A stretch of 64,000 nt of DNA from Eublepharis macularius (lineage: Eukaryota; Chordata; Lepidosauria; Squamata; Eublepharidae). The notes beneath the pieces are model-generated. The model was given only the letters and a program-made list of their open reading frames with translations. It searched no databases and was not told the DNA's origin. The stretch is taken from assembly GCF_028583425.1 (NCBI RefSeq), contig NC_072796.1, positions 86,914,464 through 86,978,463 on the forward strand. The letters are read 5' to 3'. This document shows positions 2,600 through 51,605 of the stretch, piece after piece (the first letter of the stretch is position 1; every line of letters begins with the position of its first letter). The position numbers and the translations under genes are program-made.

Positions 2600-5500
2600 C
2601 TGAAAGAGACCGGAGGAAGGAAAATAAGTGTCAAAGAATATTTCAGGAGATTTCAAAAACAAGCAGTCACATAAATCCTAGACTTGTTCCTCAAATGATA
2701 GGAAAAGGCATTCCCAGGTGGCAGCATGGGTTTGTAAAAAAGGAAACAGAATGTGGGAAAGAACCTGAGAGGCAGAAGAGAGTTAATAAATGGGCCTCTC
2801 TCCTTCCTTAACAAATGTAATGGTTAGTCACAACAAAGCAAACGTATTCAGAATTATTGAGCAAAGCTCTCTGCTCATGGCATCAAAATTTCCTGTATCC
2901 CTCTCCTCTCCTCTTCCACAGCACCCACTATGAAGCTGGGGATCCAAGATACACATGAACTTAACTGCGCATGATTTGGGAGCCTACAATAGGAGGGGGA
3001 AAGCAGCAAAAAACTGCCCTCTCCTTTGCAGCACAAACAGAAGAAAACTGATCCCCCAGCTGATGCATCTTAGATAAAGATTAAGTTCATGATACAAAAT
3101 TAGCAAGGGAAACACAGGCCTAGGTAATGCTTCACAGTTCCCTGCGTTTTTGTACACTTGGAGATATTGTTTGAAAAACAGGTTGTATAACATGGCCAAT
3201 AGTCATGATCTAGTTCAAGGTGGAATTATGGGAGGCCAATAAGAAATAAGAAAGAACTAATAGCTTCTAAATTTTACAACCCATACATTAAGGCTATTCA
3301 ACCTCAATTGCCCATAGAAACTAGTGTTTGAATTATATAAAGCTGCATCCATTTAGGTAAAACAAAATGGTCTTGATTCCAGCCAGTCACCATGCAAAAG
3401 TCAAATGCATCTGTGCAAGAAGTCCACAATTAGCTGATCTTTTCTCTGTTCAAGTAGAAAGCTGCCACAGTGCATCCTACATTGTTTCCAAAGGTCTACT
3501 GATTCTCAGTAACTACTTTGTAAAGGGTGCAGCTAACTACAACAGGAAGAGATGGTGGGAAATAGACATTCTGAAAGTGGAGGTTGGTTCACAATCCCCA
3601 GAATTCATCCCAGCACATATAAGGGAACCCTCCTAATAAGAGAAAGCACTTTTATGGCTTATGGATGTCACTTGGAGAGAAAACATGTATTTTAAGTCCC
3701 CCTGATAGCAATAAAAAAGTTAAAAGTATTAGATTTTGGCTCAGTGATGCCCCAAGTTAATTTTTACTAGAGATGTTCAAAATGTTCCCTTTCTATTCAA
3801 TAGCAAAATAATGTTAAGATGTTGGGCTAAAAACCATGAGATTGACTGAACCTTAATGAGACTCCATGTCACCAAAGTTTAAAGCACCATTTGCTTTAAA
3901 GAAAATCAGAGAACAAATTACTGTCCTCCACAAACAAATGCCACTTCAGTTATCAGGCACAATATGCTGAAATGCTAACTGAAAAAAACAAAAGAAAAAT
4001 AAATTGAGAAGACATACAGATCAGGATTGCAAAGTGAAACCCTGGAGCCACCCAAGTACAAACTGCATATTTCAGCAGGGTAGATAACCATGTTCCATTA
4101 AGCTCACTAGTAGAGACATAAACAGAATACTAATACCTGACGTAAAATATATTTATGTAGCTCTGCATGATCGCAGTGCTATTTGTTAGCAGCAAAGCAG
4201 ACATCTACAAGCTTGTTAATGTGCACCAATAGTGCAATCCTAAGCAGAGTTAAACCCTTCTAAGACCATTTAAGTCAATCAGCTTAGAAGGGTGCAGATC
4301 TGCTTAGAATGGCACTGTAAATTTCTTGATCACCAGGGATGCTCATTCATTACTTAATTGTTACTAAGACAGTTCTTTAATGACTTTTTAAAACCAGCTA
4401 AATGTATAGTTCTCTTTAAAAAGCATTTTCCTTTTCAGAGTTCAAAACAAAAGCTGTGCAAAGCCTGGCTGAATCAATATTTAACACCACCAGATGGGCT
4501 GCATTATATGAGGCAGAATCATATAATGTGACTCTGTCACATAAATATAAGTTAGGAAGGGAAAGGTGACTTGATGATGCTGCCAACCACCACAGAACCA
4601 AGGCAAGCCACTCTGGTGGGAGATTTATTGACCGAGGGTTAATCAGCACTCTGGGTCTCCGATGTCCAGATTTCCGTGATAAAACAGAATGAAATAGGCA
4701 TCCACCAAGGAGGGCTTGAGAAGCAAAGTGTGAGATAAGATAACATAAAAAAACCCTAAAGGATTAGGAAGTTCTACTGAATAATAAAGGCTCACTGTAT
4801 AAAATGCAATTTTTCAGGCCACCGTTCATTTTTCAGGAGAAAAATGTGCTGATGTGCAAGGAGCATGGACTGACAAGAGAAGCATGGCTACTGCAGACAA
4901 GCCCCAAAGATTGAAATATCCTACAGGGTCTGTAAGGGGAAAGGTTTGAAGCCACGGGTAGGATAGTTAGCTGCATTTCCCACCATTTATAGGTCTCACA
5001 AAGCCTAATTATACATGGAGGGAGTGCATGAAAGGAGTAGGCTACTAATGATTTTGTATTAAATGGAGAAACATTTCAGAATGCTCTGTCTGAACTACTA
5101 TTGATTAAACTGCTAAAGATGAAAAGCCTAATACTCCATCATTAACCTGGAAGGTGTGCGTCATTCGCCTTATCCAAAAGCCGTGCTGCAGCCAATGTAT
5201 TAAAATTCCTAGCTGCCAGTCTCAAAGAAAAATAGACACAAGCATATGATAAAAGGCAGAAAAAACATGTCCTCCTAGAATCAGGATGAAGAATATGCCT
5301 TAGGACTAGATGCAGCAGAGATATGTACTGATCTCATTATATTTTTTAAAAAATTACTGAACAAGTTCTCTCTAGACCAGAGTACAAAGCCTTGCAAGAC
5401 ATTGCCCTCCAGTTCTAATATATCGATTTACTTCTTATAAGCAAGTCAAACAATCCTACCGGCACATGAACAGAGCTTGTGCATGAATGAAGAGAAGGAA

Positions 5501-17500: not shown

Positions 17501-20500
17501 TAGAGTTGGTCCTTTTCTTATTAAGCTAGTTCATGTTTGAACGAGGGCAAATCAACGTTATCTAGAATAAGTCATTTACTTCATTCTCAGCAAAGCCCTT
17601 TGATCTTTAAGGCAATTTATATATCTCCACAGTCACTTTATTTCAAAGCAGAGTTACTAATGCACCGATTAAAACATTATGGATAGCGGAATGAGTGTCT
17701 TCTTTTGAAAAGACAATATTTGACTTTCCGAGGAGATCTATTAAACTTCACTAAACACACAGGCTACATTCAAAAGTTTTGAGAGTGATATGGTTACTGA
17801 TGAAAATCACATTTGCATGGAAGCTCCGTGCTAAGCCATTACCTTAGACAAATGTTGCTCAGAATTCAAGCATTCTTGAAAGACACAAAAATGCTAAACA
17901 GAGACTCTTCAATTGTTTCCAGCAGGTTCCTGAATGTACATATTCTTATATGCATTTCAAATTCTAGCATCACAAACTTTTGGTTTAAGTATGTAAGTAT
18001 GATTCTTACATGACTTCTTCCGACTCATGCTCCAAAATGCTGTGGAGTGGCATAGACTGAGATTGACAGATCTTGGGGTTGTAGTGCATAGCTTGAAGGA
18101 AAATATCAACTCAGTGTGTGGCTCAGTGTTGGGTATTATTAAATAATATAACAGCCACTATTGTAATGCCCTCCTATAGAACTATGTTGCAACCCAGTTC
18201 TGGTCTTTCTACCCTCAAAGACATGGCAGAACTTTAAAAAGGGTGTGAGAGAGCAACCAAGTGGCTGGAGCACCTTCCTATGAGGGAAGGCTGAAAAGTA
18301 TGAGACTTCGCTGTTTCAAAAAAGATGTCAAAGGGGAGACATGACAAGAGGTTTATAAAAATTATGCAAGGGATTAAGAAAGTAGATGGAGAGAAATTTC
18401 CTCCCTCTTCCATAATACAAGAAATGGGGCAGCGGGGAGGGTGGGGGGGATATAGTTGATGGGCAATAGATTCAGGAGGGACATAAAGAAATAATTATTT
18501 ACTTAATGAGTAATTAACTGTTGAGTTCACTGCCAGCAGCCACGGTGAGCATAAATGGCTCTAAAATGAGGACAGACAGATTGATGGAGGATAGATCCAT
18601 CAGTGTCTACTAGCAATAGTGACTAAAAGGAAAATCCAGATGCAAAGGCAGTAAAGCTCTAAATACTACTGCTAAGAGGTAACAGATTCTGTGCCTTGTT
18701 TGTCAGCTACTGAGAAACTGGATGCTGGAGTAGATGGGTCCCAGTCAGATCCGGCAGGGCTCTTACATTCTAGTAAGAAGTTCCATATGGAAGGGGGGAG
18801 ATGGTGGAAATGCACAACACAAAGAAGTCACACTGGGAGTCAGTAAAGAACTTAGAGCAACTCTTGGTCTCATCATGAACCAATGTACAGGTCATCCAGG
18901 AAAAAAAGGAGTGAGTGAATTCAACATTTATGAATGAATGTAAATGAAATTGAGTTTTACACAGGATGGCTGTGATGGGTTATAACTAAATCTTTAGAAC
19001 TAGATCCAGATATTCTGATGTCTGAAAAAACTACTTTGCTTAAGATAAATTTCTGGCAACCTGCATAGGATGTAGCTCCGCAGATTAAGACAAATTTGCA
19101 AGAGACTTGTCAGATTTAAAATTTTTGAATTTACGTCTTATTAAACATTGATGCATTAGTTACTCTGGTTTCATTTTTGCTCCTAACACACATGGGAAGA
19201 AGACTGGTGCTTCAAGAACATGCGGGAGCATTCAGCATAACTTGGAAGGAAGGACAATATGTCAGACAGGAATATTCTTTTGCTGCTTACATGGAGTATA
19301 AGGTAACAGAGCAGGTGCAGCTTATACATGGACTTGGGACAAAAGTTTCTCTTTGAGTTAGCAGAAGACCCCACCATTCGAAGAACAGAAACATCTGATC
19401 CAACCCCAGGATGTCTTATTGCACCATCAAGTAGCAACAGGCTAGGGCATTTTACATACAAAACTCAGACGCATGACAGCATGTGGTTTAAAGGAAAGCA
19501 ATCAAGTGTTTCACTAGGCATGAATAAAGCCTTGGAGTCATTTTTTGGCTCTGAAAGTAAAACTGCAGGTCCTCTACCTAGTGATGTACCTGTTAGTACC
19601 CAACTGCACTTTTGTTATTATGAACAATACAGCCATTCCAAATGATTTTTTTTTAATTGGGCAAAAAAAAACCCCACAAAAGTTTTTGAAATCCAGAAGA
19701 TCTTACTTCAACAGTTCATAGTTCTTTTCATTTAATCTTACAGCATTCTCTCGCCAGAATTTTTCAGATTTGTGCACAGGACTCCACTCTAGTCTTCCTG
19801 ACTTTAGTTCTGAACTGTACTCATCAAATGAGCTGCAAGACAATGAGAACACAAAAGACAAAGAAATAAATCTGATGCTCATAAATTCAACAATAAAATA
19901 TGTTAGGATGTGAAATATGTTAGGTGACCCAGAGTTCTAGAACTTTTTGCTCTGAGAGGATTGTTTTCCTCCATCTATACACTGTTCTACCAACGAAGAA
20001 AACCTGATCAACAGGGTTTCTAAGTGAATTTGATATGTCAGATGTGTTCGTTGACCTTGCCTGTCAACTGTCATCTGACTAACTGAACTCTTAATTATTA
20101 TTGTGTGTCCGGGGCCGATAATGGAGCACAGGCCAGATTAAGCACCTTTGGGCAAGGACTCCCCCAACCCAAAGAATCTTGCCATGACAACAGCATCAGG
20201 GCCTGGGAGCTGCATTTACCCAATCTGGCAACCAGCAGCAGCATCAATGCCTCTAGGAGTGCTGGCAGCAGCAAAGAGGCATGGGAGGTGGCAAACAGCA
20301 AATTCTGGCTGACTCAGAGATGCAGCTAGGCCCGAAACGCTAGATGATAATGTCAGCAACAGGCATCCTGAGGCAGCTGACATCAACAGCCTCAGGATGG
20401 AGGCTGACAAGGCAGCCAGGCCCTCCAACAGTTTCTGCCCCACAATCAACATTAAGGACGAGACTGCCTTGAGGAGGTGGACACAAACCAGGTAGAGCCA

Positions 20501-26500: not shown

Positions 26501-29500
26501 GTTAGTTTCAGGTTGGGTAGCCGTGTTGGTCTGTAGTGGAAGAGCAAGATTAAAGTCTAGTAGCACCTTAGAGACCAACAAGTATCTGGTATCTAAAGAC
26601 TCCATTTCTGCTTATACTTTGACTCCATTTTTGCTTACACTTTTGCTTATACTCTAGAAATATTGTTGGTCTCTAATGTCCTATTGCACTCAAATCTTGC
26701 TCAAGGAAAAGGTTAGAGTCTAAAGATTCTCAGTGAAGTACATTAGGAGATAATTCTGTATGTATACATGCATAGCCTAACAGACACACAAAAGATGGAG
26801 CATTTTTGCCTTTTCTCCCATCTATACTGACAGTAGCGCCACCTCAATACAGCTGAATTACACATCAGATGGTCTACATATTGCTTCCACATAGACTGAC
26901 TTGGCATCGTGAGTGACTCCAAATGAGCCTGGATTTAGACTTGGTCTGCCAGGAGCAGAGCTCTAACCACACTCTCATAATGCATTATAAAGTGTTGGAA
27001 AATTTTCAGTAATTAAAGCTGTTACTGAGTATAAATCCTAGCAGTTGGTTATGTAGTACAAAAATACAATATCACTACAATATTGTCATCTACCTGTGAA
27101 CTCAGTTGGGTTTTAATCCAATTGAAATAGTAATTTAAGTCACTGCCTTCCATCAGTTCTCTTCCCCAAGCTGCCAGTTTAGCAATAATTCTGGCTGCCT
27201 GAAAGAAAATGCAGAAAACAAGAACTTCAGACTCACACAACCACAGACATTGAGATAAAGAATCCTGATAGACATAAAGTCAAGGTTTGGTTTTTCAGAT
27301 TTCTGAACCATAGGGTCTATGCATGAACCTGCATGGTCTAGGACAAAACCACGTGGCAAGCAGTCTCCAACTTCTCCCACTCAGTGTTCTGCACCGTCAG
27401 CAGAGAGGACAGAGAATTTTCTTGACACGTTCAACCATGACATGCTTTAAAGAATGCAACTAATAGTGAAATCCTACATAGAGTTACTCCAGTCTAAGCC
27501 CACTGAAATCAATAGGCTTAGGCAGGAGTTGCTCTGTTAAGGATTTCACTGTAAGTATCCTATCAGCCATGGCATCTCCTTTGCCAGTATAATCAAGAGT
27601 TGTTCACTTGTTTACATTATTTATAGTCTGCTCTCCTTAGAGAGACTCAAGACAGAGGGCATAAGAACTATTGTGTATTTCTGTTCCAAAGTTCTCAAAC
27701 ACCTCTCAACAACCTAAGTGCAACACTGTGAAAAAGAAGAGCAAAAGGGATAAGAATAAAAAAAGTGAAATGCTTTTACAGCTGGAAAGGGTCCAAATCA
27801 TACAGTCAGGTCCTTCAAGAGGCTGTTCAACCAAGGTTACTCAAAAATTAATTGTTGGTTTAAAGCCAATGACTGTAAAAGTCTGTAAAGGCTTAGTTTG
27901 GGAAAAAATTATCACTCTCTTTTTCTATTAAAACTATCAAATGAGAATATAATGGTTTAACTCCAAACATCTCAAGCCAGACCAAACAACACTTCCAGAA
28001 GGGACTCAGGCTTAGACTTTAATCATTCTTCAGAGGCAGAGTTATAAATGGTGGGAAGCCATTAAAAAGGCTTCTCTTTCCTCAGAAACTATGTCTGAGG
28101 CTGTGTTATCATATGATTCTTTTAATATAACCCTTAGTTATATTCTCAAGGACTGACAAAACAAGCTTCACAGTTTTGCAGCACTGGCAGACCAGAGACT
28201 TCCTGCACTGCTTTAAAGCTCCACACGTATGAATCTTTCAGTAGCATAACCTTGAATGCTAAAAAATCATACTTTATAACATGTTATGCACTTGTATAGG
28301 AAGTTTAGGCCAAGAATATGGGGGGGGGGAATGGCAACACGCAATAGGACATGAGGTCAGAAAGAGTATGGAAATTTCTGATGTCGAGGTTTACCTTTTT
28401 CTATTAGCCTTAGTTTAAGAGAGAATACTACCAAAATGCTTCACTACTGTACTAGCACTGCTCTCCAGTTAGATTAGCAAGAATATATGGTGGCATTAGT
28501 AATTGCTGCTGGTCTTATATATGGATTTTATGCCCTGACCCGGAGAGCCAGGTGAGCCTGATCTCGTCAGATCTCAGAAGCTAAGAAGGGTTGGCCTTGG
28601 TTAGTAACTGGATGGGAGACCTCCAACAAAGACCAAGTCTGCAGAGGCAGGCAATGGCAAACCACCTCTCTTGGCATGAAAACCCCACCACGGGTCGCCA
28701 AAAGTCAACTCTGACTTGAGTGCACTCTCCACCACCACATGGATTTTATACACATGTGGTGGTAGTGTACCAGAGCAATAAAATATTTGAAAGTGGTAAC
28801 TATAATGCTTTCAAAAGCAATTGAACATAATACAGAAAGTACATAAGACTTATTTTTGTTAAATTATATAACCACCATTCCAAAGAAGTTTTGTGTAATA
28901 AAATAGGGTTGCACTTACCTGTAACTGTTGTTCACTGAGGATCTTCTGTGCAGGCTCAGATAGGAACTGCACATACGCAGGCCAGCAATGGACGTTCTAA
29001 AGCTCCTAGAGATGCAAGATGCTTGCCTAGCCTTTTTGTGTGCTCCCCTGCCCCCGGGCACAGCTATAAAAGGCAGGGCGAGTAGCTCCCTCCCTCAGTT
29101 CTCTATGCAGAAGGAAGGTAAGAATAAGAGCTGACAGTGGGGAAGGAGGGAGGAATGTGTGCCTGGCACAGAAGACCACTCAATGAACAACAGTTACAAG
29201 TAAGTTCAACCCTGTTTTTATCATCATGTCTTGTGTGCATCCCACATGGGAGATTAGTGAGCTAATTTACCAAGGGGGAGGATGTGAAGGTCTTTAATGG
29301 AAAAGAGGCTTCATCAAGACCACCTTGCTAATAGCTGTGTCCCATCTGGAGTCCACGTCAATGGCATAACGTTTGATGAATGTAGATGGTGTTGACTAGG
29401 AGGCCACTTTGCACAAGTCAACTAGTGACAAATTTTCAGTTGACGAGGTGGACTGAGCCCTTGTGAAATGAGCCCTTATATGTAATGGGCATGGTTGCTT

Positions 29501-32500: not shown

Positions 32501-35500
32501 CACTCACCCTGCCTTTTATAGCTGCACCTGTGGAAAAAGTGCGTGAAAAGGCTAGACGAGCATCTCATGCCTCAATGAGCATTAGAACATCCATGGCTGG
32601 CCTGTGAATGTGCAGATCCCACTGGGGACTGCACAGAAGACACAACGATGAACACTGTATGCTGTAACAACTGCTACTTAACATTAGCCACACAGTGAAA
32701 GAGGAGTAAATACTAATGAGAAGAGCCTTCTTAGATAAGGTTAGAAATTTTTATTTACATGTAAAGCTTTTGACTCTTCAAAAAGGTGAGGGTATGGCTA
32801 AGATTGACTTGGTATAGCAGGAAGTTCTATTCCATGAAAGACTCAGCTTTTATTGCTTTTGTTAAATATAATAGTTCTGCATTGTATTATATTAATACTG
32901 AGCCTCCTCCAGCATGTGTGTATTTAAGTTTAGGAAGAGTATACGGACTTAAAGATTCTGATACAGATGCTTTTTTCTTTTCCATTTGTAGTTAACTTTC
33001 TCTTTGACTACTGTGTAAACAATTTGACTTGATGTGCTTTCTTATTTATATTCTGCCTGACTAACTGTGAATGCAATTACTTTGTTTTTCTTTGGAAAAG
33101 AAATTTGAAAAAAAAGAGTCTCCAGCCTCCTCTCACATTGACGGTGCTGATCAACTGAAAACTTACCATATGCACTGTGAAAAGATCTTGACGATTCAAC
33201 ATTGGCAGGAAGTAAGACCATGCAGTGTTCTTGCCTCGTTTTGCATAGTCAAAGAAAATACTAACACGTTGGTGATTTTCCTGTAAGAAGTATAAGACAA
33301 AGAAGTTTGTAGTTGTTGTTACTATACTATGTAGGACTGCCAAATACAGCAAAGGGCTTCACAACGATAAAGAAAATTGAGGAAAGCTGTATAAATAGAG
33401 GAATGCTTTCTGGATCTCATCAGTGAAGACAATATTCTTCTGTGCAATGGACTATGCTGCCAATTCATAGATAAACATGCTATTGAGTTACATTGATAGA
33501 AGAACTCAAATTAAATCAGAGATATGATTTGCCTGTTCTCCTCAGCATGGATTACTCCACTTCTGGAGTATTATGTCGCATCCTCACAGTTCAAGAAAAA
33601 GCGAGGAAAAAACCAAGTGGAGGGGGGAAAAGATCTGAGGTTTGGAGAAAATTACATATGATAAAAGACTAGAGGGGTTTGATTAACTTACTGGAAATTA
33701 TACCAGGCAAGACTCGATAAAGGTTAATCCATATCAAGCTGTCTTATGAAAGATAATGCTTGGCTCCCCTTGTCAGTGATATGCAGCACCAAAACAATGG
33801 GTAGAACCTCCAGCTGATGAGAGGCATGAATGACTGGGCAAATGGCATGGAGCATTAGAATACATGCGTGGGACGTACAGGTATATTCAACCATGCCCAT
33901 CCCATGACAGCACATGATACTTGCTGGGAAAGGTTACCACCTCCAATGCCCTAGTTGCAAGACTCCCAGAGGTATCTAACTGGATGCTAGCAAAACAGGA
34001 TGATGGATTAAATGGACCTTGGTGTGATTCAGAAAGCTGTTTCCCACGTCCTAATTCATGGTAGGATTCCTGCTCTGGGCAAGAGACCCAAGAACTCAAA
34101 TGAACCAAAATTTGCGTTGGTATTCTTGTCTAGAACAAACCCAAGATATTATGTAGTTATTTTGGTCTTAAGATTGGCCTTTAAGTGCTCTTATATCATC
34201 CCAGATTCTCCTGTTAATCACCATGATTTACGTCAAGAATTTAACAAGCACAATCCTAAGCATGTATACTCAGAAGTAGATGGTACTGAGTTCCATGGAC
34301 CTCAGTAAGTTTGCTTAGGACTGCAGCCAATGTTATTTATGTGAAGAAACATGACAATACATGTACCATGTAGCTTACATCATAAACCGGGCTGCTAAAT
34401 TCTGGACCAGGAAAAGTTTCTGAATAGTCTTTAAAGGCTGCCCCATATAAAGTATATTACAGTCATCAAAACTAAAGACGACAATAAGCATGGTACGATG
34501 GAAGGCAGGTCAAGGCAGTTGCTCTCATAAACTTGTACAACACTTTTAGAATTGGATTCCTGAGACAAATGGATACTTAGAAGATTATGGCTTAATTATT
34601 TGCATTCGACTATGATTACGTACTAGTGACCAAGCCCGTTAATTAAAAAAAAAAACGGGCTCTACAAACAGCTCCTGTGCTCCGCAGGGGGACGATTTTG
34701 GCCCATTTGGGGTTGAAATCAGGCCACTGTGGAGCACAGGATCACTGCCAGGGTGGCATGATGGACCCTGGACTGCTCCTGAGCTCCACAGTGGACTGAT
34801 TTCGGCCCCAAACATGCCAAAATCAGGCCATTGTGGAGCATAGAAGCACTCCAGGGCCTGATGAGCCACCCCAGCCTGCTCAGGGCCACCACCATACCGG
34901 GCCTTCCCGCTGGAAGGGCTGCGCTGGCCTAGTGGGCCTCACTGCTGCCTCAGCAGCTGCATCAGCGCAAACCTCTGGAGTCCCTGAGTAGGCTGCCGCA
35001 GCAATGGAGAAGGCCAGCGCAGTGGTGCAGCCCTCCCTGCTGCCACACCGGGCCTTCGCAGGCCTCCGGAAGCCCCGAGGCAGCGGGAAGGCAAACCATG
35101 TTGCTGCCGACTCAATTCTTATCCCTGCAGAGTGCGCCTGTATGGGGATAAACAGTGAGTCAGCAGCAACATGGTTTGCCTTTTATGTCTTAGGACTATA
35201 TTAAGACTATTATACTACTTTATATTACACATACTTAAGTTTAGTCTGTTCAGCAGGTTGTGACTTAAACATGTGAATAAATACACATCACTTTAAAAAA
35301 AATGAAAAAGGTTAACTAATTCATCTATTAACTATTCAAGCCACTCTCATTTGCAGCTGCCAGTTTAAACTTATTTCACCGAGCATACTGCTAGTACATT
35401 CTACAGATATTTTTGTACACAGTCCAATAGTAAAACGCAGATCTGCATACAACATACTGTGGAAGTAGAAACAAGCAGCTGTTGTCCAAAAAAGTTTATT

Positions 35501-38500
35501 CCACTGCTGCTATGCATCATTCAGAAACTTCAGAAGAGAAGGGAAAGAAGTTCCACACGAATCCCATTAAAATCAAATAAGGCTGCTTGCCAGGTAGCAT
35601 CAAGCCTTTTAAAACAATATTAAGCAGAGAGCAAGTGAAAAGCCACCTACGTCAAAGTAAGACACCCACATATCAAGAGTTAAATGTTAAAAAGGTTAAT
35701 TAACTTACCTGCAGCATATCATCAACCATAGTTAAGATGTACTGAACTGTCTGTTCCTTGGAAATATGAGTCATCAGGTTTATGAATGTTTTAGCACACT
35801 AGAAAAAACATTTCAAGAAATTAAAGTATTAGCAACTGTTTTCCTTCTCATTTTACCATATAATTTCAAAAATGCAGGTGGCATGGAAAACTCTTTTAAA
35901 AACCTCAGCTTGTTTGACTGCACTATGTATTTATTTACTGTGACTTATACCCCACTTTTCTATTGTAATACACCTGAGTAAGCTTACAAGCAAAATTATA
36001 TAAACACTTCAAAGCATTAAAAATGTATAATCTCTAAAATAAAAACACACAATCTAAAGCAACAAGAAAACAGCAACAATATGCATTTCAAAACAGTAGC
36101 AGTAGGAAACCCCAGTAGTTCAAAATTCATTCCAGGAATTAGAATTTATGCAGAAAGGGTAACTCTAGCCATACTTCAGAGTTTTTCATGGTCCGGTGAT
36201 AGCAGTGGAACACTGTCTCCCCCAGACCCCTGCTAGCTTCACATCCTGTTGTGAGTAGGTTTCTCAGCATGGAGCCATCATCTAAACTCAGGCCCTGGGA
36301 AGCTCATACAGAAAGATGTGATTCTTCAGTTATTGTGGACCCGTGTCATTCAAGTAATTACCTCAGTACAAGTATCGAATATATTGGGCATTTCCAAACA
36401 AGTGACTACTGCAGGCTCCATTAATTTGATTAGTTTTCCCAGTGGAATGTACACAGAGTAGTAATAATGGTTGCACAATTTATACATCAGTAGGAGGCGG
36501 GGGGGAGAGAAACAAAGAACATACTGTGTTGAATTCATGCCCTGCAGCCAAAAGATAACAGGTTTTACAGGACCAGATTCTGACTGGTGGAACAATGTGG
36601 ACATTTTGTGAATGACACCATTTATATCTATTTTGATTTATAAAGGGGAAGCAGCTAGGAGACAATTCCCAAGGCAGCAAAACTAAACATGCTGAATTCC
36701 CAGGTTGCTTCTTAAATAAACTAATGTGAGAAATAAAGTCAGGGTCATTCCTAGCTCAACCTACAGTAAGTGTATTTAACATATAAGTGAGCTAGCATGG
36801 CTGTTTCTCCTCTGCTTTTCACAAGACTGGTTTCTAACAATGGACAGCGTAGTAGGAAGAGACAAGACAGCACATATTTGTGCAACAGGTAAGTGGAAGG
36901 AGTTTGTGGAAGTAGATTTTTTCTACCTTCCCACTACAGCCCCTCCCCTCCTTGAGGGTTGAGCAAAATTACCCTCTTTACTTTGGCCCAAACAGAGCAA
37001 GTCTCAAAGACAAGCTTGCTTCATTCCTGCAATGGGGTGACAGACATACATGCATGATTGTTTTATTAACTATGATTATTTTTACAGGGTAGCTAAGAGT
37101 TTTGGGGAAATCACAGTTGACATTTGAACATACTGTGTTCAGAATATCTTTTTGTCATGTCTTGCCTCTCTTTCAATCACCTTGAAAATTTGTTCACAGA
37201 AAGCAGTCTTGCATAGTATGCACAGTGGCAGCAGTTAGCAAGGCAGTTGGGAACTGTTGATTATGCATGCTAGTTTGTTATATCTCAGATCATTACGGGT
37301 GTCTCTTTTAAAATCAGCTCAGTTAGGCTGCACAGGCTGTTCTTACTACCTGCACATCTTGCAGGAGTTGTCCTGCTCTCCCTTCTCCCTTGCTTCCTAA
37401 CCCTTTCATTTCCTTTCTTGTTTGTTTTATATATCCTGAAGATACATACCTCCATGGCTAAAAAGTTTTGGTCAATTTCATTTCATGGTTGTTGGGGGTT
37501 TTCCGGGCTGTATTGCCGTGGTCTTGGCATTGTAGTTCCTGACGTTTCGCCAGCAGTCAGGAACTACAATGCCAAGACCACGGCAATACAGCCCGGAAAA
37601 CCCCCAACAACCATCGTTCTCCGGCCGTGAAAGCCTTCGACAATACAATTTCATTTCAGCTTCCTCAGACAGGAGCTGCACAGCTTCAAACTAATATTCT
37701 AGCTATGCAATCCTGTTCAGTGATTCCAGTCTAAACCATTGAAATCGCTTAGGCTGGAGTAAGTCTGCATAAGATAGCACTTTAAGAATTCTGACCCAGT
37801 GAATCAAAGATGAAACTGAAGGAGGCTTTCTTAGCCACACTTGGTCAGTGTCAAGAACCAGGCTTGCTTCTTGGCCAAACATATGCTAAGGTAAGCCTGC
37901 CTGGCTAGGCCCAAACGAGAATCCTGTGTAACTTGGTAAAACTCAGTGAACAGCAGTTCCGACCAGAGAGGTACACCTGGACATGTCTGCAGAACACAGG
38001 TGCATGTGAGATCATGCAAGCACTAAGGCTGAGCAGCCACAGTTTTCTCTCCTGCATTCCATCTCACTATCAGAGCCCAAGCTGGGAATAACTGCCCTGA
38101 TATGTAATGTGACTCAGCTGCAGAGGGCCACATTAAGTAGTCTCGTAAGGTCCTGATAGATTCCTAGAGTCTGCCCATGTCTCTGGCAAATATGGGATAA
38201 AAATGAAGTTTTCAGTATGATTCTTTGTTTATGGACCAACAGACAGGTTGTTGGCCTTTGGCCACTGTGTTCTGTTTGGATCTTTGTTGGTAACTGTGGC
38301 TTACCCTTTGCAAGGCAACATCTTGTTTAGTGGGAACAGGATCCTGTCAGGTATGTTAGGTTTTTAGTTTAAGTAATCTATTGTTTCATTTAGCTGGTCT
38401 TGCACATTTTCTCTATATGTAATCTTCTAAACAACTCTTAATAAACATTTTTTTCTTTAATACTCTGTGCTGTTACTGGGTCTTGGGCTTCAATCTGATT

Positions 38501-41500
38501 CCACTACCTTGGCCCATTGGTCTGGGTACAGGTAACTGTTTTGCTGGTACTCAGCAGGCAAGTAGTTTACCTTGCAGGGCTGATTTCCAGGTAAGAACCC
38601 AGTACAGTTGAGTTGCCTTGGTCTCTGAGCTAAGGGTTAGCTAGAGGAAATGAGTGGCAGAGATCTTCCTTGGGGTGTAAAGATTTCTTGACCCCCAGAG
38701 CATGTTTGTTTTGATAACCACCATTTGGAACCTGGCCCAGGGGACATGGCATTGATAGTAAGACAGCTGTACGGGACAGAGCAAACCTCGTATCTGTCAG
38801 TCACTCTCTCACTGATGTAAATGGCTCATGTACTTAAAGAACTTGGTTCACTGCAGGTGTGAAGGGCAGGTGGCAATGGCAGACAGAGCAGGAAAGCAGT
38901 ATCAGAATGTACGCATGCAATCAACTTTTATGCACCATCGCTAACTGCTCAGACACAAATGAAGAGTATTCAGCTCCGAAGAGCATTCAACTCAATATTC
39001 AACTTTGCTAATTGCAACTTGCAGACAATTTGTGAATCAAACCCTGTGGATAATGAAGCATTATCTTTACCCTGCTTTCATGCAAAAAATTGATGTCCAA
39101 AGCAGCTTATATAAGTTTAATACCAATGTTAATTAAAATATAATGAAACAGGTGCTTCAGAAAGGAGTCCCAGTGAGGCACAGGGAAGAGGTGCCCACCT
39201 GCTGTCTCTTCTCCCTCTGGCCTTGCTGATGGCAGTGGGGAGCTGGAAAAAAGGAGCTCTGAGCTGGAGCTCTACCCAAGTATGATGGAAGTGCACCTTG
39301 TTGCCTCTACTATATAAGCAGTCATTTCCAACAACCTAGTACAAAGCTAGAGTTAATTACATTTTTTGTATTTTTAAATAAATCATAATTATACAGATAT
39401 TGGTGTTTACGCCAGTAGCCAACAATGCCTCTATGCCATGGTTCACTTGGCAGCTATGACCTGGCTCTGTGGTTAAACACTTCAATTCCAATGGGGCATA
39501 TATCCTGTTCCCTGGATTTTACCCCTATTTCATGAAGAAGCACACACAAAAGTCTCTCTAAATGACTCTAACACATCACAAGACAGCTGCGACATATCAT
39601 TAGAAGGACACATTTTTTTTGCAATCAGGATGCCAAAGACAAAACTTTAAAAATGCTGGACTTCTATAACAGGAATCTCCTTGCAAGGAATGTCAAATTA
39701 CCTGGTGGCCTTCAGTTTGTAACAACTCTTGTTTCTCTTCTGGGCTTCTTTTCTTTTCAAACTTTTGAATAAACTCACAGTCATCGGCTGAAATCATCTG
39801 CCCCCTGGAAAAAAAATAAGCAGCTAAGAGAACTGCATTAAGTTTAAACAGTTAAGTTTAAACAACCAAGTACAGGCAAATTCAAAAGGAAGCAGAAAGC
39901 ACAGCAGGAACATCTCTGTCTACCTGGACAGGCAACCCGTATGTGTAGACTCAGGGTAGACAGAAAAAAAGATTTTATTCAGATACAGATATCAGGAATT
40001 CCATAAATACTGAATATTCCTGATATTTTCTCAATTCAGATCTGGTTTATTTGGGAATTCCAACTGTATAGGGCCATTATTCCCTGTGGGGAAACTAGGA
40101 GGGGGCATTTTTCAAGTAAACTCCACAAAAATTGCAGGGAACCCAGACCTTCCTGTTCAGTAAAGATCCTTCAAATTTCAGGAAGAGAGGGAAAACTCAC
40201 TCTGACCCTCCCCTGGGGTAAAAATGCCCAGAAATATTCCAGAAAGAAGAAAAAAGAGCTTGCAGAAGAAGCCAGTCAGCTTTAAAGCTGCTGGAGTACT
40301 GTTTCCAGATTGATGCTTATCTGGCATTAAATTATTTGATATTCCTGAATATACTGAGGATTATGGTTGTTGGGGGTTTTCCGGGCTGTATTGCCGTGGT
40401 CTTGGCATTGTAGTTCCTGACGTTTCGCCAGCAGCTGTGGCTGGCATCTTCAGAGGCGTAGCACCAAAAGACAGAGATCTCTCAGTTTTTTGACACTGAG
40501 AGATCTCTGTCTTTTGGTGCTACGCCTCTGAAGATGCCAGCCACAGCTGCTGGCGAAACGTCAGGAACTACAATGCCAAGACCACGGCAATACAGCCCGG
40601 AAAACCCCCAACAACCATCGTTCTCCGGCCGTGAAAGCCTTCGACAATACATCATACTGAGGATTCTCTAATGTTATTCGGTATACCTGCATAATGTTAT
40701 TAAGGCATTATTTGGGTATATATTTAGTATACAAATACTGAATCGCACACCCCTAGAACAGCAGTAATTTGTTTACCACTCTGAGTGGGGCACTAATCTG
40801 TCTAGAAGAGCGTTATACAAGTGCAGTTATTCTTATAATTCTTATTCATAACAATTAAAATTTAAATAATTAAACAAGTTTTACACTTAACAAGAATTAA
40901 GCTTCCTCAAATCATAAGATCTGCTGATTAAGAACTTCCTCCTGAAGTATGGCAGGGTTTGGGGTTTTGTTTTTTAATTTGTAAACATTTGTTTTGATGT
41001 TAGTTAATGGATTTATTTCACTGCCTGGGTCTACTTCACCTGGGTGAATCAGATTTCCGCTTGTTTTCAAATTTCTGCAATCTATATCATAATGTATTGT
41101 TTACTGAATGTCCCTGTTGTTGACTGTATGAATTGCACTATGCAATCTGCCTTTCATGCCAAACAACCACTAAGCTGCACTAGAGGAAATACAATGAAAT
41201 CAAATAAGATGTTCACATGGGCTCTCAAATATTTCAAGAGAGATACCTAAAAGCCTACCAAGATGAGCCAAGTCAAGCAAACCATACTACAGCAACCAAA
41301 AAACTGTAAGTGCTAGCCAACAGGGACCACCATCCTGAGCTATGTTCATTTGTCCAAGAAAGGAAAATGCTTTGCATATTTTCTTTGTAGACATAGGTCA
41401 GTTTGGATTTGTGGGTGCAGCTTATGGAACAGGGAGATGCTGTGCAGCAAATTCTGGACAGGGATCACAGCTTGGACTGGGAGAAGTACGGGACACCGCA

Positions 41501-47500: not shown

Positions 47501-50500
47501 ACTTTATAAGTTTTCATACTTTATACTTGGGATTACTTTTGGACTATCCAGAAGCTTCAGCTGACTCAAAAAGCATCAGCCAGGCTGCAGGCAAAAGCAA
47601 ACTGCAGAGACCTATTTCACCAGTTCTACTGGCTGCCAGTTAAATTCTGAACCCAATTCAAAGGACTGGTTATTACCTATTAAGCCAGTCTGGGGCAGAA
47701 TACCTTAAGAACCATCTCCTCCTGTATAAGCGTGTCCACCAGTTCTGCATGCCCCGACTGGCTGAGGAAAGGTAGGTAAGCACCAAAGACAAGGCCTTCT
47801 TTGTTATAGCACCAAGACTGTAGAACTCCATTCATACAAAGCCTCACCTGGGGCCCAATTTTCTGTCTTTTAGGTGTCAGGCAAAGATATTTTTATTCTT
47901 ACAGGCTTGTGGCTCCACCCCAAACGCACACACAGTAATATATCTCTATTAATACATAACTACAACCATTTCAATTACACATGCACCACTGCACACATAG
48001 GGCTGGCTGTCTCCCCTCATCCCTGTTGATCCTTAGCTAGCCTTTGTGTATTTGAAGTGAGGGGAAGGGCTTCCCTCTTACCTTCTTGCTCTCTCCTCAG
48101 CATGAGTCACAGGAGCTTACAGAGTAAGACTGTCAAGATGCCCAGAGGAAGACCAGCTGGCTGTGGAGAAAGGGGAGTAAAACTGCCACCACTCCACTTT
48201 GGGCAGCCCGCTCTTTTCCTGAATGGCTGCCGTGGTATTAGTAGAAGTCACCCGCTTGCTTTCCTCCCAGCAGGCACCTGGGTGCTGGGATGAGAGTATA
48301 GAGAGCCAGTCTGGTGTAGTAGTTAAGAGTGGTGGGACTCTAATCCAGAGACTTGGGTTTGATTCCCCACTCCTCCACTTGAAGCCAGTAGGGCAACCTT
48401 GGGTCAGTCACAGCTCTTCCAGACCTCTCTCAGCCCTGCCCACCTCACAGGGTGATTGTTGTACAGATACTAATAACATACTTTGTAAACCACTCTGAGT
48501 GGGTGTTAAGTTGCTCTGAAAGGTGGTATATAAATCAAATGCTATATTATTGTATTATTGAAGCTGCAAAGAAGGGGTGCTGGCTGGAGAGGATGGGCCC
48601 TTGACTACCATTCCCCTGGAACAAGGCCTGCAGTTCAGAGATGCTTGCAGCATCCTTTATCCCCCATAGCAGTGGCTGTTTCAAGATGTAAACCAGTTTC
48701 CAATCAGAAGCCCTACCAGGCAATGGCCTTGCTCACTCTGGAACATGGGGTAGGTGTCACATTGGGAAACAGTGCTCAGAAGAGCCACAGGTGGCATGTC
48801 AAAGAATCACAAGTGGTCTTTGAGCCACTGAATGAATATCACTTTGAGCTACTGAATGAATATCTACACGATAGACCTGTTACAGGAAGATTTCTGTATT
48901 CATGCAATATATCAGTTCATTTTGAAAGGTTATCACATACATTTGGCATAACGAGGTGATGCTTCGCCGCTTCTGGGATCCACTTCAAGAATTCCTTAAA
49001 ATTTTCATGTGACTTTTTAAGCCCATTGCAATTAGAATATTTGTCCCTGGGAACGAGGTTTTTGGTATCTTCCACTACTGAGTTGATTCCAAACTCTCTG
49101 AAAGAACAGGAAGTACCTAGCCACCTGTGACCATGATTCTCCTTAGAAGTGCTGAAGCTTTTGTAACTTCCTGCATAGAACTTGCAAGGATTTATGGTAT
49201 GTGAAATCTCTAGAGCTCTGGGAAAAGTTTTTTTTCAATCAATCCTTCACCCTACATAATGCAATGACCAACAACACTCATTGGCAGGAATCATGTCATG
49301 ACCTAGAATGTAGCAAGTATATAATTTAGATCAGGCCTGAGTGACAACATATTGTGCTGACAGTTTCAGGTAGGTAGCCATGTTTGCCTGTAGCAGAACA
49401 GCAGAATTGGGGTCCAGTGGCACCTTAGAGACCAACAAGATTTTCAGGGTATAAGCTTTCATCAGCCAGAGCTCCCTTTTTCAGATACCGTATCTCAAGA
49501 AGGGAGCTCTGACTTTCAAATGCTTATACCCTGAAAATCTTGTAGATCTCTAAGGTGCCACTGGACCCAAATTCTGCATATCGTGCTCTTAATCTTAGCT
49601 CTAAACAAAGTTTTTTAAAAACAAAAACTCCAAGATAACCTTTCATTCCATATTTCTTATCAGCACAGAGAGAAAGCTTTTTCAGAGTTAAATGAACCAG
49701 TCCCGCTCAGAAGTGGGAAAAAATTAAAAAATAATAATACTGTTGTCTAGGAATTGATGTGGTTATCTTTCCATCCACAGTAAGTCAGAGGCACAGAATT
49801 ACAGCACTAGGACAGAAAGAAGCAGCCACTGATTACAGATGAAATACAGTTCTCAGAGCTGTTTATTTTTCAAGAACTCTTTCCCTAAGCAACACAGCAC
49901 ACAGCACCCAATGATTCAGTTTTCCTTTTGTTACACATTTCCTTACAGTAAGCATAGTTCCTCTTCTGTGCACACGGCATGGCAAGGGCTACTTTACTTC
50001 CCTGAAATGTTGCATTTTGTCAGAACTCATCTCATTGTTAGTCACTGTTGTTAGCAGCATTGCTCCCATTCTGTAATTCTAGGAAACAAGGGAGAGGCCT
50101 TGGAGGCCTGAACTTCTGGCCATCTAAACTATCTGAACTGGCTTTTTAATTTTATTTTCCTTGTCAATTAAAAACAGCTAGAGGAAATTTTTGGAAGGGC
50201 TATAAATAGATAAACTTTGGCTCTTGCAAGCTAGGGGAGATCCTCTGTGGAGTAAGTTACTGCTTATTGATTCTTTTGTTTACCTCTGGTGGACAACATA
50301 CGCTTAGTGGCAAGGCAGGATTTTGCTCTGTAGCTCCTTAGACTCTGAAACAGAGTTTGATTCCTAGAATTCTATAACTGTCACAGAATAATCTCACAGG
50401 ATTTTACAAATATAATTTTATTTCCACAATTCCTGTTAAAAGTGTTTTGCACTAACATTTATTCAAAATCACTGACTTCAAACACTCCATAGCTAAATGT

Positions 50501-51586: not shown

Positions 51587-51605
51587 TTTGATCTTGAATC
51601 AGAGC
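51483..51605 (-). CDS. ATP6V1H: ATP6V1H exon 2 (start codon; residues 1-35)
   Basis: First coding exon. The acceptor AG is at 51607-51606 and the donor GT at 51482-51481. The start codon is 51586-51584, giving [16 protein letters not shown] and ending inside codon 35 (CA|G). The start context AAAATGG has A at -3 and G at +4. Human begins three codons earlier (MTK-MDIRG); here those codons read AAG ATC AAA, so the first human ATG is absent and the second conserved Met must be used. The 19 nt before it are 5' UTR. Confidence 0.96.

Follow-up and report, generated by a model that had tools for sequence, protein, structure and literature searches.

Minimal hammerheads of Penelope-like elements (PLEs), which Cervera and de la Pena in 2014 and Lunse et al. 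in 2017 are said to have described, reportedly have a CUGANGA/GAAA core, stems I and II and hardly any stem III. In L1 twin priming, both target strands prime on the element RNA, which leaves an inverted segment. In the PLE Poseidon_Ac (PAc) of Anolis carolinensis, the ORF is described as beginning at stem II of a hammerhead: its AUG overlaps the core and stem II, and the cut falls 26 bp past this codon (PMC11167929). Reverse transcription starts 111–118 into the ORF, and what lies between two start sites is called the 'tail'. According to the same paper, the enzyme acts in vitro on both strands, which it cuts and extends, with AT-rich targeting; no difference between the strands was seen in the start site of reverse transcription. 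The Anolis ribozyme needed the PLE protein, ribozyme mutants left in vitro insertion unaffected, and RNA-seq showed no reads that begin or end at the cut (PMC11167929). Penelope families of the bdelloid Adineta vaga have a head-to-head inverted pseudo-LTR (pLTR), a one-sided tail of 31 bp, a TSD of 8–10 bp and junction palindromes, and self-priming was proposed for them (PMC3846280).

The window analysed here is a 64,000-nucleotide stretch of the Eublepharis macularius genome, in which a sequence-only reading had located a foldback retroelement at 40363–40653, with a complete hammerhead-like ribozyme on each strand. These coordinates proved exact, and the arms, the filler and the flanking TSDs were all located. 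The region is a single insertion and a near-perfect foldback. After the left TSD (ATACTGAGGATT, 12 bp, 40351–40362) comes the left arm (40363–40486, minus strand), which carries the pLTR and ORF start antisense on the plus strand, has no tail and ends at the inferred RT initiation site 1 (reference base 1624 of the relative L064). The arm joint holds a 4-nt filler, TTTT (40487–40490), which does not match the continuation of either arm in the reference copy. The right arm (40491–40653, plus strand) begins at reference base 1497, close to where the RNA 5' end is predicted, and carries the pLTR, the ORF start and a tail; by sequence comparison, this tail (40619–40653, plus strand) lies between the inferred RT initiation sites 1 and 2 and is present on the right arm only. 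The right TSD (ATACTGAGGATT, 12 bp) occupies 40654–40665. The two inverted arms are identical across 124 nt, and they consist of the PLE pLTR and the first 28 (untailed) or 39–40 (tailed) codons of the ORF. The placement of the foldback in an ATP6V1H intron was consistent with tblastn, in which residues 3–38 were found at 51589–51482 and residues 36–72 at 39812–39702 on the minus strand, on either side of the foldback, with a human ATP6V1H protein sequence as the query.

All residues of a type I hammerhead core (CUGANGA, GAAA, NUH) are present on both strands as CTGAAGA, GAAA and GTC, and the minimal layout that had been read there is supported by the letters. On the plus strand, the motif spans 40514–40579, with CTGAAGA at 40528–40534, stem II at 40536–40541/40549–40554, GAAAC at 40555–40559, GTC at 40560–40562 and the predicted cut after 40562. 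On the minus strand, it spans 40402–40467, with the core at 40453–40447 and the predicted cut after base 40419, and the same CTGAAGA, GCCAGC/GCTGGC stem, GAAAC and GTC run from 40453 to 40419. Complementary letters allow a stem II of 6 bp and a stem I of 3 + 6 bp with an internal loop, and the stem I pairs CCT/AGG and TTGGTG/TGCCAA are present as described, the latter including two G–U pairs. The extra U noted before stem II is there, but it is no oddity: it is the U of the PLE start codon AUG (40534–40536, plus strand), between A9 and G10.1, an arrangement like that described for Anolis Poseidon (PMC11167929). As far as that description goes, both elements have a hammerhead over the ORF start and a cut 26 nt after the start codon.

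The reference coordinates used here are those of L064, with the AUG at 1540–1542, the predicted cut after 1568, site 1 at about 1624 and site 2 at about 1657. In L064, an open frame of at least 486 codons, which reaches the end of the locus, contains an RT domain (PF00078/RVT_1, E=1.4e-12). The frame stops with TGA at 1460; downstream come a TATA-like box, the same pLTR leader with the ribozyme motif and the new AUG. An RT ORF is thus joined directly to a downstream pLTR, as in PLEs, and the inverted pLTR, the one-arm tail and the TSD of PLEs were also found. Because of this layout of RT frame, stop, leader with motif and AUG, the arms were assigned to a Penelope-like element, and the retroelement origin and Penelope link of the earlier reading were borne out. 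A GIY-YIG-like motif was seen in L064 by eye; the Pfam match was to T5orf172 (E=0.0055, 17.6 bits, below the 20-bit cut-off), which we take to be a member of the GIY-YIG superfamily. The window arm recurs letter for letter (131/131) in at least 4 other genomic places, and the family is therefore regarded as young. It is quite probable that 40363–40653 is a solo head-to-head pseudo-LTR pair left by a young Penelope-like (Poseidon-type) retrotransposon, which was inserted by twin-primed synthesis from two sites. What had been called a foldback retroelement with a ribozyme is accordingly kept as a retroelement, but not as a stand-alone ribozyme device; it looks like a PLE insertion product. L064 together with L106 (near 254.17 Mb of contig C1 in genome G000) forms a giant foldback of the same family, with arms of about 1.85 kb; its self-complementary stretch of 3,692 bases is 99.7% identical to its own complement and includes RT frame.

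Two further foldbacks of the same family, overlooked in the sequence-only reading, lie in the window at 1209–1459 and 37485–37647, each with a separate TSD and a separate joint. Foldback B (1198–1471 with its TSD GTAGATAATTTC, plus strand) has arms at 1209–1318 and 1318–1459; the ribozyme of its right arm is altered (GAAACATC), and the minimal motif is intact on the left arm only. Foldback C (37474–37658 with its TSD AATTTCATTTCA, plus strand) has arms at 37485–37556 and 37556–37647, and the joint falls within the ribozyme, leaving no complete motif. Foldback B is located about 1.1 kb beyond the ATP6V1H stop codon, past possible polyadenylation signals at 2257, 2059, 1716 and 1535, and two more possible signals (409 and 253) are further on than the foldback; it may lie within a long ATP6V1H 3' UTR. 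The other self-complementary stretches (49401–49577, 34671–34847, 35088–35182, 27459–27556 and 4231–4316) showed no match to the foldback family in the window self-comparison.

The exact tail was found at 18,418 places and the ribozyme core pattern at 29,485 places in the 2.24-Gb genome, with 0 matches for the reversed control of each; the window locus thus stands out neither by its motif nor by its foldback. Three sets of copies were used. The similarity-ranked set was built from 55 matches (40 of 308 candidates being scored), which were reduced to 40 copies and made 42 with foldbacks B and C; L076 was left out as the second arm of L061. The tail-picked set was taken from the first 100 of the 18,418 tail places, at one end of one contig, and required the exact tail. 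Two tails fell in one stretch in three cases, which gave 97 loci (L108–L204), and leaving out 11 segmental duplicates and L139 (the mirror of L140) gave 85 copies, the composite loci L112/L113 and L183/L184 being counted once per tail. Since the tail-picked sample would miss foldbacks without any tail, a motif-picked set was also examined, from the first 100 listed of the 29,485 motif places, with segmental duplicates kept (2 of 15 pairs). Arm ends given by blast may be imprecise by a few bases at microhomology, and inverted arms that are very short escape it.

The tail is almost always on one arm only. Among the 85 tail-bearing copies, the inverted arm was untailed in 48, tailed in 2, not found by blast in 16, beyond the examined stretch in 15 and complex in 4; the last two groups are uninformative, so that 50 inverted arms were resolved. 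The 48 untailed inverted arms end at reference 1618–1632, and 39/50 left ends fall at 1623–1627. In ORF coordinates, tailed arms end at +115 to +120 and most untailed arms at +84 to +89. TSDs of 7 nt or longer were found in 45/48 untailed copies, versus 11/491 unrelated flank pairs. Neither of the two copies with tails on both arms (L140 and L196) has a TSD of at least 7 nt, and they may be of different origin. The similarity-ranked set had given an inverted arm in 37 of the 42 copies, all 37 untailed, ending within 1618–1632 and none past 1630; an absolute asymmetry (37/37) was assumed at first, and the tail-picked sample then gave the 2/50 exceptions. In the motif-picked set, neighbours less than 700 bp apart among the first 100 listed motif places were head-to-head in 15 cases, direct in 0 and tail-to-tail in 0. 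All 15 head-to-head pairs have one tailed and one untailed arm; the tail is exact in 12 (also in the tail sample) and altered in 3, and always on one arm only. At least two of the 16 copies without a blast-detected inverted arm (L151 and L159) show inverted element sequence on inspection. Those 16/85 copies indicate that the second arm is not always made. Likened through its published description (PMC11167929), Poseidon_Ac also has insertion ends near ORF +111 to +120 and a tail of about 30–40 nt between two initiation sites. No strand difference in the RT start was seen for it in vitro, whereas here the tailed and untailed ends are split between the arms of TSD-flanked copies.

The outer asymmetry and the orientation of the pairs also bear on other classes of element. 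A MITE or DNA-transposon foldback was rejected, as flush TIRs are absent and the outer ends differ by the tail in 48/50 copies. A non-LTR, metazoan retrozyme was rejected as well, direct tandem hammerheads being absent (0 direct pairs among the first 100 listed motif places). Pattern scans of viral and bacterial contigs gave 4 viral and 55 bacterial loci, which were treated as chance: 22 of the 59 match the element by blastn (E ≤0.01), but only over 18–32 bases around the searched pattern, and tblastn of the 39-residue ORF head against the 59 loci gave nothing below E 0.05. The phage records searched held no match to the element.

The two arms of a copy share template variants. In the tail-picked set, the variant at site 1614 agreed between the arms in 45/46 copies, and the divergence between arms within a copy was 1.99% versus 2.84% after permutation (p=1e-4, n=37 copies). 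The arms of L064 differ at 3/1,623 positions, versus 2.39% to the sole other copy comparable over that length. In several short copies, such as L079, L088 and L099, the left arm resembles other arms at least as closely as its own right arm. An origin of the arms from different templates was considered for the many pairs of the similarity-ranked set that mismatch at position 1530, and the mismatch was put down to the ranking of right arms by likeness to the window; in the tail-picked set, this position is below the 12% minor-variant mark.

Many arms begin at reference 1490–1502 (17/50 left arms and 20/78 resolved right arms), which is 22–34 nt after the start of the TATA-like box. This box reads TATAAA in 14/34 and TACAAA in 18/34 aligned stretches. 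Some copies in which no inverted arm was found, such as L150 and L179, also begin there. From the DNA alone, we infer that 1490–1502 would be an RNA 5' end, that is, a putative transcription start. The inner ends of the two arms fall within 3 nt of each other in 19/50 copies, versus 3.9 expected by permutation. This excess is more than two fully independent truncations would give and calls for an RNA 5' end or RT stops common to both arms, or for annealing at palindromes; in our reading, the arms were copied from a single RNA or from RNAs that share a 5' end. In 12/50 pairs, the arm lengths differ by more than 40 nt, and many copies extend into the PLE ORF at one side or at both. Among the 50 joints, 20 overlap by 1–11 nt (8 of these by at least 7), 2 are blunt and 28 have inserted bases; some inserts derive from nearby sequence, and two are longer than 100 nt.

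A mechanism in which both target ends prime would combine these features. The element endonuclease would make a staggered cut at the target, and each of the two target 3' ends would then serve as a primer on the element RNA. The tailed arm would come from priming by one end at site 2 (ORF about +115 to +120), and the untailed arm from priming by the other at site 1 (ORF about +84 to +89); the strands would prime separately, and the enzyme would set the two sites. Both cDNAs would extend toward the RNA 5' end, often reaching 1490–1502, and would be joined 3' end to 3' end through short complementary stretches or filler. The ribozyme would be cargo that overlaps the start codon of the parent and, in the foldback, is trapped with its own antisense. 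Compared with L1 twin priming, the second priming position is here fixed rather than scattered, and the arms cover the same RNA stretch. Weighing against this mechanism are the two copies with tails on both arms, the 16/85 copies without a blast-detected second arm, the excess of coincident arm ends, the short copies whose own arms are no closer than others, the box that reads TATAAA in a minority of stretches and the GIY-YIG match below the cut-off. We lean slightly towards polar twin priming as the general rule, in which the target strands prime one RNA (or sister RNAs) at two fixed positions, the presence or absence of the tail marks the sides, and the start-codon hammerhead has no part in the insertion template. 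No literature linking twin priming with Penelope insertions was found among works containing both terms, as judged by titles and the starts of abstracts.

One rival is self-priming, in which a single cDNA or antisense RNA, folded back on itself, is extended from its own 3' end into a hairpin. The 19/50 foldbacks with arms equal within 3 nt would suit it, and the inverted-junction palindromes of the bdelloid element are interpreted in this way in PMC3846280. However, self-priming should copy the tail to both arms and give equal ends, which was seen in 2/50, the tail being missing from 48/50 inverted arms. The pairs that differ by more than 40 nt also argue against it, as do fillers such as the TTTT of the window copy, which continue neither arm, and the loopless joints of L142 and L152, which are unlike a single-strand hairpin. 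Twin target-primed reverse transcription from two fixed sites therefore suits the arm data better, and self-priming is considered unlikely. The gecko copies share the head-to-head inverted pLTR, the one-sided tail, the TSD and the junction palindromes with Adineta vaga Penelope as described in PMC3846280, but many of them are solo pLTR pairs or 5'-truncated, and their arms speak against the self-priming proposed there.

Alternatively, the foldback itself could be the master of a non-autonomous family, spreading through its own transcription and retrotransposition with deletions at the hairpin tip. Fixed outer ends would be expected from such a fixed master. L180 and L181, which are 7.5 kb apart, have the same junction (a 9-nt shared stretch) with different TSDs; either this microhomology served in two separate events or the foldback itself was copied. 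This pair, which would favour a master, is the only common junction noticed by eye among the listed joints after removal of duplicates, and a joint at a 9-nt shared stretch may have arisen twice. The concordance of the arms within copies at site 1614 and the one-sided or two-sided extension of many copies into the PLE ORF also stand against it, so a foldback master is hardly probable.

A ribozyme descriptor that required CTGANGA, 0–1 nt, 4 bp or more in stem II, GAAA and then a cleavable triplet gave 4 matches in the window, every one in the foldback family. Three of these have a minimal stem III (C-G-T-H), versus 0 in 60 dinucleotide shuffles, and the relaxed descriptor gave 6 matches summed over the 60 shuffles versus 4 in the window; the motif matches in the window are more than chance. 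No Rfam hammerhead match was found up to E=10 for the window or the motif alone, which is a weak test for a stem III of one C–G pair. Rfam microRNA matches in the window were taken as the long hairpin itself. The core and stems are the same as those of minimal PLE hammerheads, with nothing that defines a new class, and the base between A9 and G10.1 belongs to the start codon; by its letters, the putative ribozyme is a PLE hammerhead, of a kind already known.

Loss of the core from most genomic copies had been named beforehand as evidence against a hammerhead, and it was not seen. Among the arms spanning the core, it is intact in 49/63 right and 29/35 left arms, and 20/50 foldbacks with a resolved inverted arm have an intact core on both arms. 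Damage to the core is mostly at one CpG (reference 1565/1566, 18/22 core changes). Because the stretch is also coding, the copies are young and the changes are mostly at this CpG, conservation of the core was not taken as proof of selection on the RNA.

Insertion ends at the predicted cut (reference 1569) were found in 0/128 resolved arm ends, and 1 lies within 1567–1571. Cleaved RNA is therefore unlikely to be the usual insertion template, for arms would then end at 1569. The right-arm start of foldback C (reference 1566) was considered as a mark of ribozyme cleavage and ruled out on the same count. A second cluster of arm ends was observed at 1579–1586, on the 3' strand of the outer stem I (L126, L130, L142, L152, L188 and L203); here the reverse transcriptase may stop at the folded ribozyme.

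Folding was predicted thermodynamically rather than co-transcriptionally, and in these predictions each position of the 38-nt core stretch pairs with the antisense arm with a probability of at least 0.997 on both strands. In the isolated 72-nt segment, a core-breaking fold is favoured (−18.5 versus −15.1 kcal/mol), the inner stem I pairs have probabilities of 0.01–0.02, and the best predicted fold is without inner stem I. This misfolding is in line with what is reported for the Anolis ribozyme, namely its need for the PLE protein, the unaffected insertion with ribozyme mutants and the lack of reads ending at the cut (PMC11167929). The letters of the motif would indeed be present in a transcript of either strand, as the sequence-only reading held, but the motif lies 3' of its own antisense arm in each transcript and is predicted to be sequestered. 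These models suggest that the ribozyme of the window foldback is probably held in the duplex and silent, and the ribozyme in the parent element RNA may act there. Although the core residues are intact on both strands and minimal PLE hammerheads are said, as cited in PMC7761336, to cleave as dimers, the least probable account is that the foldback supplies a working hammerhead per strand that cleaves ATP6V1H pre-mRNA or its antisense, given the predicted duplex, the other fold preferred by the isolated segment, the inactivity of the related Anolis ribozyme without the PLE protein and the weak but negative Rfam search.

The ribozyme is thus ordinary, a known PLE motif with tens of thousands of matches in the genome, and the interest of the locus is in how the arms end. 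The large set of young copies makes the origin of the inverted pLTRs and of the one-sided tail in PLEs testable, and exact predictions follow for the in vitro system of the Anolis element. If polar twin priming is true, the tail and the inverted pLTR, which have long been called optional oddities, would directly record the order of the strands.
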